From: Methanomassiliicoccus sp.
GTDB lineage: Archaea > Thermoplasmatota > Thermoplasmata > Methanomassiliicoccales > Methanomassiliicoccaceae
DNA: 64,000 nucleotides
Reading direction: 5' to 3'
Assembly: GCA_033485155.1 (NCBI GenBank)
Contig: JAWQJJ010000006.1
Coordinates: 1-64,000, forward strand
Both the position numbers and the translations under genes were made by a program. Positions 47,001 to 48,749 of this stretch are shown here, in pieces (the stretch's first letter is position 1; every line of letters starts with the position of its first letter). The notes under the pieces were generated by a model. The model made no database searches. It was not told the DNA's origin and saw only the letters and a program-made list of their open reading frames with translations.

Positions 47001-47019
47001 GTAGGTGTATACATCCAAC
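47001..47019. promoter_or_regulatory. Operator-like palindrome 1 of the peptide operon
   Basis: GTAGGTGTATACATCCAAC is an imperfect palindrome differing at three positions from the perfect-armed copy at 47073-47091. It lies about 35 nt upstream of the TATA box of the peptide gene. Confidence 0.6.
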
Positions 47020-47039
47020 TAAAACTGGACGATAGCAAT

Positions 47040-47053
47040 TTATTTATAATATA
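47040..47053 (+). promoter_or_regulatory. TATA box of the peptide/radical-SAM operon
   Basis: TTATTTATAATATA gives a strong TATA box. Transcription should start near 47072-47080, inside the second palindrome, leaving a leader of about 30 nt before the peptide ATG. Confidence 0.6.
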
Positions 47054-47072
47054 ATTCAGGCTAAACCGCTAT

Positions 47073-47091
47073 GTTGGATTATACATCCAAC
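47073..47091. promoter_or_regulatory. Operator-like palindrome 2 of the peptide operon
   Basis: GTTGGAT-TATAC-ATCCAAC is a perfect 7-bp inverted repeat at the predicted transcription start. TATACATCCAACTA is identical in palindrome 1, 72 bp upstream. Confidence 0.65.
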
Positions 47092-47105
47092 TATGAGGTA
47101 AGAAA

Positions 47106-47201
47106 ATGAGCGTAGTAATGTGCCGCATGGAATGCAAGGTCGATGGGAACGGGCTCTCGCACTACATCATATATGATGAGCAGGGCGAACTCCCCTTCTG
47201 A
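47106..47201 (+). CDS. cbpA: 31-aa Cys-containing peptide, probable radical-SAM substrate (CbpA-like)
   Basis: A short frame codes for 31 residues starting M-S-V-V-M-C-R-M-E-C with Cys at 6 and 10 and ending E-L-P-F. GAGGT lies 7 nt before the ATG, and a strong promoter with two palindromes precedes it. The radical SAM/SPASM gene starts 40 nt downstream. Size, position and Cys content fit a precursor of a modified peptide. From memory, methanogens have such a pair named CbpA/CbpB; this assignment is not checked against models. T-rich sequence between the two genes could reduce readthrough. Confidence 0.7.
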   Translation: MSVVMCRMECKVDGNGLSHYIIYDEQGELPF

Positions 47202-47241
47202 TCAAACCCCTTTCCAACCTTTTTCTGTAAGGTGAGAGACG

Positions 47242-48642
47242 ATGATATCTGATGACAACACAGCGATAGCTATGAAGCCGTTCGGGCTCAACTCGGGAAC
47301 GGGCCCCCACCTCCAGTTGCTTGATGTGGGAGACTGGTATGCATTCATCGAGCCGGAGAGCATGTTCTGGGCCCTGGTGGCGAAGGACAAGGACCTCAGT
47401 AAAGCGCTCCGGGAGGACGTTCTTCCGGTGTACGCACAGCATGCCGAGAGCATGCGGAGCGAGCTGAGGCAGTTCCGATCGGAGGAGCGGTTCAGCGCCG
47501 TATACTTCAATCCGACCGGCAGGTGCAACGCCAGCTGCCGGTACTGCTACCTTCCCGACGACCTGCGGGGACAGGGGCATCACATGACCTATGAGGAGGT
47601 CTCCCTGGCCTTGGATAACTTGCATGACTTCTTCCAGAACTATCCTGGCTCGGTGGCCAAGAAGGGCAAGAAGCCGGTCATCGTGTTCCATGGCAGCGAG
47701 CCCCTGTTGGTGAAGGACGTCCTAAAAAGGATCGTGGTCGACCGCGCCGACGAGTTCATCTTCGGCATTCAGACCAATGGATATCATCTGGAGGATAAGG
47801 ACGCCGATCACTTCATGGATCACCGGGTCTCCCTCGGCATATCACTAGACTCACCGTTCCGGGAGGTGAACGACCGTATCCGGCCTCTCCGGGGAGGTGG
47901 AGGTACCTTTGACCGGGCGGTCCACGCCATCGAGCACCTCGACGGCTACCGCAATATGAGCGTCATATGCACCATCAGCTCGATGAATGTGACCACCCTG
48001 CCGGAGATGATCGACTTCCTTGCCGACCGGAAGGTTCCCTCGGTCCTCATGAACCCGGTCCGCGGCACCCAGGAGGTGGCGAGGTCCCTGAGGCCCCCCA
48101 ATGATGTACTCATTCCCAAGTTCACCCAGGCGGTGGACCGGGCGGTGGCTAGGACCAAGGAGGGGCGGCGGATCACTATCGGCGACTTCTCCAACCTGAT
48201 CCTGGGCATCGTCGCTCCGCAAGGCCGCAGGCTGATGTGTGACATCACTCCCTGCGGTGGAGGCCGGTGCTTCGTCTCCGTTGCCTCTGACGGTTCCATC
48301 TACCCATGCTCGGAGTTCCTCGGCATCAAGGACTTCAGCACCTCCAGCGTCTTCGAGAAGGGCGGGGTGGAGAGGGCGGTGAGATCGCCGCAGCTAACGG
48401 CGGTGCGCTCCCGGTGGGCCGAGGACATCCCCGTATGTTCGGATTGCGTCCTGAGGAACATCTGCGGCGCGCCCTGCCCCGGGGAGGTGTATAGCGAGAC
48501 GGGGACGGTGATGGAGAAGAGCCCATACTGCGAGTTCTACGAGGCTGTCATACGGTATGCCTTCCATCTCATTGGCAAGGGGGAGCTGCCCAACCTGGTG
48601 AGAATGGATGGCTACGATTTTCGTTTCAATCTGTTCTCGTGA
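47242..48642 (+). CDS. cbpB: Peptide-modifying radical SAM/SPASM enzyme (CbpB-like)
   Basis: A 466-residue enzyme with the radical SAM cluster C95-x3-C99-x2-C102 (R-C-N-A-S-C-R-Y-C-Y), a TIM-barrel core (H-G-S-E-P-L glycine-rich region; G-I-S-L-D-S), and a C-terminal SPASM domain rich in Cys (C-D-I-T-P-C-G-G-G-R-C, Y-P-C-S-E, C-S-D-C and C-G-A-P-C). SPASM enzymes modify ribosomal peptides or proteins. An N-terminal extension of about 85 residues could bind the peptide. It follows the 31-aa peptide gene. ATG 47242 has GGTGAG upstream. Product chemistry cannot be told. Confidence 0.88.
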   Translation: MISDDNTAIAMKPFGLNSGTGPHLQLLDVGDWYAFIEPESMFWALVAKDKDLSKALREDVLPVYAQHAESMRSELRQFRSEERFSAVYFNPTGRCNASCRYCYLPDDLRGQGHHMTYEEVSLALDNLHDFFQNYPGSVAKKGKKPVIVFHGSEPLLVKDVLKRIVVDRADEFIFGIQTNGYHLEDKDADHFMDHRVSLGISLDSPFREVNDRIRPLRGGGGTFDRAVHAIEHLDGYRNMSVICTISSMNVTTLPEMIDFLADRKVPSVLMNPVRGTQEVARSLRPPNDVLIPKFTQAVDRAVARTKEGRRITIGDFSNLILGIVAPQGRRLMCDITPCGGGRCFVSVASDGSIYPCSEFLGIKDFSTSSVFEKGGVERAVRSPQLTAVRSRWAEDIPVCSDCVLRNICGAPCPGEVYSETGTVMEKSPYCEFYEAVIRYAFHLIGKGELPNLVRMDGYDFRFNLFS

Positions 48643-48648
48643 ATGGCA

Positions 48649-48668
48649 AACCCCTTTTTTCCTCATTT
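48649..48668 (+). terminator. T-rich terminator after the radical SAM gene
   Basis: A run of pyrimidines with a T7 and a T5 stretch lies just after the stop at 48642, a typical archaeal terminator. Confidence 0.5.
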
Positions 48669-48749
48669 TTGTTCATCGAATGGTCGGCAGGGGAATACTT
48701 TTTATAGATTCATCAGATTGAGTGGACCAAATTATCTGAGGTGTTAGAC

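Follow-up and report, generated by a model that had tools for sequence, protein, structure and literature searches.

A putative palindromic operator links a divergent archaeal CbpA/CbpB peptide system to a predicted cobalt/corrinoid regulon of Methanomassiliicoccales

Results

The most informative feature of the cbpAB locus in Methanomassiliicoccus sp. is a perfect palindrome, missed by the earlier note on this DNA, which sits 33 nt before cbpA at about the expected transcription start. Sequence comparison of this putative operator and its neighbors across genomes places cbpAB in a predicted cobalt/corrinoid (B12) regulon, since other copies of the same operator lie beside genes for cobalt and corrinoid functions. 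On balance, and with modest confidence, we favor the reading that cbpAB encodes a divergent archaeal CbpA/CbpB RiPP within this regulon, the modified product of which serves intracellular cobalt/corrinoid handling under scarcity. The features described below are listed in Table 1, where the window is the whole 64,000-nucleotide stretch of DNA that was analyzed.

Table 1. Genes, protein motifs and predicted control elements of the cbpAB locus, with positions in the window.
Feature	Position	Strand	Basis
Imperfect operator copy GTAGGTGTATACATCCAAC, 72 bp upstream of the main copy	47001..47019	.	3 mismatches
TATA-like box TTTATTTATAATATAA, A/T-rich, between the two operator copies	47039..47054	+	By eye; role inferred
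Perfect palindromic putative operator GTTGGAT-TATAC-ATCCAAC	47073..47091	.	Genome counts, conservation, regulon neighbors
Ribosome-binding site GAGGT	47095..47099	+	By eye in the sequence
cbpA, 31-aa precursor peptide MSVVMCRMECKVDGNGLSHYIIYDEQGELPF	47106..47201	+	TIGR04164 match and purifying selection
CbpA core C-x2-[DE]-G-x-G-L-S-H-Y-I, residues 10-21	47133..47168	+	Common to Methylovirgula CbpA
cbpB, 466-aa radical SAM/SPASM peptide maturase	47242..48642	+	TIGR04163, PF04055
Radical SAM motif CNASCRYC (C95, C99, C102)	47524..47547	+	Invariant in archaeal and bacterial CbpB
SPASM auxiliary-cluster Cys C333, C338, C356, C399, C402, C408, C412, C430	48238..48531	+	
T-rich run 3′ of cbpB, likely transcription end	48655..48670	+	By eye; inference

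The earlier note had read a Cys-containing gene of 31 codons here, with a ribosome site and a SPASM gene 40 nt downstream, and all three are borne out; the strong promoter of the note was judged by eye. The peptide MSVVMCRMECKVDGNGLSHYIIYDEQGELPF matches the TIGR04164 profile ('modified peptide precursor CbpA') with 30.5 bits and an E value of 1.8e-7, and an intact homologue lies immediately 5′ of cbpB in all nine of the Methanomassiliicoccales genomes that carry cbpB, as had been expected of a genuine short gene; a peptide gene also adjoins the single bacterial plasmid copy of cbpB. When cbpA copies of equal length are compared with that of the window as reference, there are 7–15 synonymous and 1–5 non-synonymous codon differences (15 against 3 in typical comparisons), and the reading frame is therefore under purifying selection. 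Assignment to the CbpA/CbpB type, for which a profile search had been proposed, stands for the enzyme and falls short for the peptide, as CbpB passes its curated cut-off (375 bits for TIGR04163) and the 30.5 bits of CbpA lie under that of TIGR04164 (35 bits). Four further archaeal CbpA copies score 24.1–27.5 bits, all below the same cut-off, and Methylovirgula CbpA scores 59.4 bits; by these profile scores we class archaeal CbpA as a divergent relative or subtype of TIGR04164 and not as a member by cut-off.

Alignment of the homologous short genes reveals the conserved Cys that the note had anticipated. With small variations the archaeal peptides follow the pattern M-[SN]-x-x-M-C-R-[ML]-x-C-x-V-D-G-N-G-L-S-H-Y-I-I-Y ... 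E-[LF]-P-F, in which Cys10 is conserved and Tyr20 strictly so, and the segment C-x2-[DE]-G-x-G-L-S-H-Y-[IV] is common to the archaeal and bacterial forms. The composition is rich in Met, Cys, His and Asp, and neither a signal nor a double-glycine leader was found within the 31 residues.

The product of cbpB scores 483.7 bits against TIGR04163 over residues 27–449, with a further match to PF04055 (Radical_SAM, 62.9 bits) and one to PF13186 that is below threshold (18.3 bits, cut-off 21.5). It carries both the CxxxCxxC motif and the Cys for two auxiliary clusters by which a radical SAM/SPASM maturase is recognized. The eight C-terminal Cys are invariant in CbpB, that of Methylovirgula included, while C343 varies, and from their arrangement we infer that they could ligate two auxiliary clusters, as in anSME. 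The second-best profile is PapB, at 117 bits and far under its cut-off of 340, and the best sequence match in the PDB is CteB, the thioether-forming (ranthipeptide) SCIFF maturase; beyond the CbpB profile itself there is no specific enzyme match. A fold model with an overall pLDDT of 61 gives ChlB, anSME, TigE, SkfB and CteB as its top structures. In this model, the overall confidence of which is too low to support conclusions on substrate or RRE, residues 25–81 form three strands and one long helix, and the N-terminal ~80 residues are possibly an RRE (PqqD-like); a single-sequence model was poor.

In the 2.8-Mb, 15-contig assembly there are seven exact copies of GTTGGAT-N5-ATCCAAC and five with one mismatch, where 0.013 and 0.53, respectively, would be expected under a first-order Markov model. 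The exact palindrome occurs in 63 of 147 Methanomassiliicoccales genomes, representing 25 of 30 genera, and the reversed control pattern is absent from the genomes listed; the arm letters are identical across genera and the spacer is variable. Most of these sites were found by the arm sequence itself, but the cbpA sites were not chosen in this way, and each of the nine cbpAB genomes has a palindrome with no more than one mismatch 27–40 nt 5′ of the cbpA start. The upstream copy is present at 72–73 bp in all five genomes of the family listed (0–3 mismatches), and two further sites in this genome show operator pairs at a spacing of 71–72 bp. An Rfam search revealed no cobalamin riboswitch or other element near cbpAB.

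The genes beside the other operator copies in this genome are functionally coherent. They include two importer operons of the BtuFCD type, of which one continues with CbiZ and the other with a CobD-like gene; CbiM-CbiQ-CbiO with a CbiA/CobB-family amidotransferase; CobN; CobA (adenosyltransferase); CobT; CfbA (sirohydrochlorin chelatase); CbiT-CbiL, with two mismatches at the CbiT site; and MtaC-MtaB, with a permease opposite. One site lies by an alcohol dehydrogenase (ADH) and a TrpD-like phosphoribosyltransferase. Several of the same neighbors recur at operator sites in other genera, with CbiD in addition, and at some sites in other genomes no nameable gene adjoins. A literature search yielded no report of a cobalt/corrinoid regulon in Methanomassiliicoccales. 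We note separately that cfbA, a gene of F430/nickel synthesis, carries the operator (L046:6663-7061) and so may serve cobalt too, and that the ADH and TrpD-like pair is a repeated operator neighbor (L044:5036-7211; L081, L087), possibly a lower-ligand gene pair.

A Fur-family gene lies directly 5′ of cbiM in many Methanomassiliicoccales genomes (L049:8544-8939, which is G000 C3:22543-22938) and is present in 36 of the 147; its product is a candidate cobalt-responsive regulator. As the regulator of the operator described here it is disfavored, having no ortholog (E ≤ 1e-22) in five operator-bearing genomes, G213, G242, G396, G398 and G399, the first two of which are 99% complete. A different dyad, TTAGTAATNNGTATCATTAC, with only two copies in the genome (G000 C1:448557-448576 and C3:22974-22993), lies immediately 5′ of a corrinoid importer operon and of cbiM, and is likely bound by a different regulator, which may be the Fur encoded beside cbiM. 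DtxR is disfavored as well, since the single member detected in the genome is next to FeoB (FeoB and its iron role being assigned by eye from the sequence). In two genera a DUF4443 winged-helix gene, located downstream of an apparent SAM synthetase gene, ends right before an operator copy (L074:842-1426, L075:797-1381); its product is a possible candidate for the regulator.

Above the cut-off, cbpB was found in 9 of the 147 Methanomassiliicoccales genomes, and from this sparse occurrence of the pair we conclude that cbpAB is dispensable for corrinoid use. The highest-scoring CbpB (718.9 bits, 39% identical) is bacterial, so that the 'methanogen type' of the earlier note is imprecise; it is encoded on the one plasmid on which a bacterial cbpAB was found, pHY1 of Methylovirgula sp. 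HY1. The plasmid genes (L069:14768-20295) stand immediately 5′ of pqqADE, with a nitrate reductase operon nearby, and the stretch examined contains no cobalt gene and no cobalamin riboswitch. A search for viral copies found none, nor did a search of 40 genomes of another phylum, which had no positive control. Most of the gene order amidohydrolase-cbpA-cbpB-ferredoxin-PrsW-TrxR is kept within Methanomassiliicoccaceae, although PrsW was not detected at one locus of this family (L059). In a second family (G298, G475/L058; locus L052) the operator, cbpA and cbpB are kept and every flanking gene is absent. The ferredoxin, PrsW and TrxR-like reductase genes, which the earlier note had offered as electron donors or protease partners, are therefore better seen as a shared neighborhood than as linked functions, and no exporter or protease is linked to cbpAB across genomes; the ferredoxin gene has its own TATA-like box, picked out by eye at 48698-48707. 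In the G475-like genome the gene immediately 5′ of cbpAB (L058:6900-7553) encodes a DUF1638 protein, of a family that occurs in clusters for methylamine methyltransferases. CobN is lacking in seven of the nine cbpAB genomes, CbiM in two and both in two, and this patchy co-occurrence led us to reject a role tied specifically to CobN or to CbiM.

Discussion

The operator provides a basis for proposing how cbpAB may be used. A repressor would bind GTTGGAT-N5-ATCCAAC over the transcription start, aided by the second copy upstream, and with sufficient cobalt or corrinoid it would turn off not only cbpAB but also the uptake of corrinoids, the import and chelation of cobalt, and the synthesis and salvage of cobamides; repression under sufficiency is suggested by analogy, by what the genes encode and by where the operator lies. 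Under scarcity, CbpB, with its radical SAM cluster and two auxiliary ones, would modify CbpA in the Cys10-x2-Asp13/Gly-x-Gly-Leu-Ser-His-Tyr core, the likeliest changes being a thioether at Cys or a cross-link of aromatic type, and mature CbpA, probably kept in the cell, would then serve in cobalt/corrinoid binding, transfer or rescue. For both the cross-link and the metal or corrinoid role of CbpA we rely on inference. The retention of operator, cbpA and cbpB while flanking genes change counts in favor of this explanation, as do the invariant Cys of CbpB and its CteB match; the patchy co-occurrence with CobN and CbiM counts against it, as do the presence of the pair in only 9 of 147 genomes and, for the cross-link, the absence of a specific enzyme match other than CbpB, and so, for a cobalt/corrinoid role, does the Methylovirgula pair beside pqq and nitrate reductase genes without cobalt genes. 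The narrower proposal that mature CbpA is itself a cobalt- or corrinoid-binding ribosomal peptide, made when cobalt is limiting and acting either as a cobaltophore or as a chaperone for cobalt inside the cell, a cobalt counterpart of methanobactin, we advance only tentatively, and think rather unlikely as it stands.

Among the alternatives, the one that survives best, though we think it improbable, is that CbpA, in the manner of PqqA and MftA, gives rise to a small redox cofactor for an enzyme used under corrinoid shortage. The strict conservation of the peptide, Tyr20 included, the position of the bacterial cbpAB just 5′ of pqqADE and the ADH gene within the regulon would all fit, but the regulon ADH operon is also present in G398, where cbpB was not found, and no dedicated partner enzyme or protease was found. 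Slightly less probable again is export of the mature peptide as a methanobactin-like metallophore that scavenges cobalt or corrinoid and is re-imported by the BtuFCD-type importers of the regulon. Two BtuF/FhuD-type importer operons are available for such re-uptake and the Met, Cys, His and Asp content of CbpA would suit metal binding; yet CbpA has no leader of either kind sought, neither an exporter nor a protease keeps company with the genes across genomes, and the peptide sequence is hardly diversified. We give the same low standing to the view that cbpAB is a corrinoid-independent substitute or a stress response in which no metal is bound. Bacterial B12-riboswitch regulons do include substitutes, such as metE-type isozymes, and the distribution of cbpAB is patchy, but no co-encoded enzyme could replace a corrinoid step. 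It is very improbable that the palindrome forms a hairpin in RNA or recurs by chance, without functional meaning, and that cbpAB is an ordinary RiPP, for although a 7-bp stem with a 5-nt loop could form, the arms keep the same letters across genera while the spacer varies, paired copies flank the TATA-like box on both sides, the frequency far exceeds chance, the neighbors are coherent in function and Rfam has no match.

A cobalt/corrinoid function for the modified CbpA thus remains the reading that we prefer, and it bears on the statement in the earlier note that product and role are both unknown: this holds for the product, whereas for the role the operator points to cobalt/corrinoid homeostasis. 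The cobalt/B12 operator gives the predicted CbpA/CbpB RiPP family its first testable role, and it places archaeal cbpAB in a named physiological pathway with a simple induction condition, through which the product could be isolated and its function tested. No report on CbpA/CbpB came to light in a literature search that reached few of the subscription journals; the model names 'cobo_pep' and 'rSAM_cobopep' indicate that a cobalt context may already have been noted by NCBI curators. More broadly, the regulon seems to govern cobalt and corrinoid genes generally in Methanomassiliicoccales, which are corrinoid-dependent methylotrophic methanogens.

Relationship to known systems

The closest counterpart is CbpA/CbpB of Methylovirgula pHY1, in which the peptide gene is likewise directly 5′ of the SPASM enzyme gene and encodes the same C-x2-[DE]-G-x-G-L-S-H-Y core. 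The archaeal peptide differs in having about 9 residues, not 25, before the shared Cys, and in its extra Cys6 and conserved [LF]-P-F end; the locus differs in that archaeal cbpAB has a cobalt/corrinoid operator, in contrast to the pqq and nar neighbors of the plasmid genes. CbpB shares the full set of auxiliary-cluster Cys with the ranthipeptide thioether formers PapB and CteB, but the substrate spacing here is C-x2-[DE] and that of PapB substrates is C-x3-D. With methanobactin and the PQQ and mycofactocin peptides there may be a likeness, in that these are short ribosomal peptides that become metal- or redox-active molecules, yet no genes are held in common with cbpAB. Finally, bacterial B12-riboswitch regulons have a similar content (BtuFCD, CbiMNQO, cob/cbi genes and CobN), whereas the putative control element in these archaea is a DNA palindrome.
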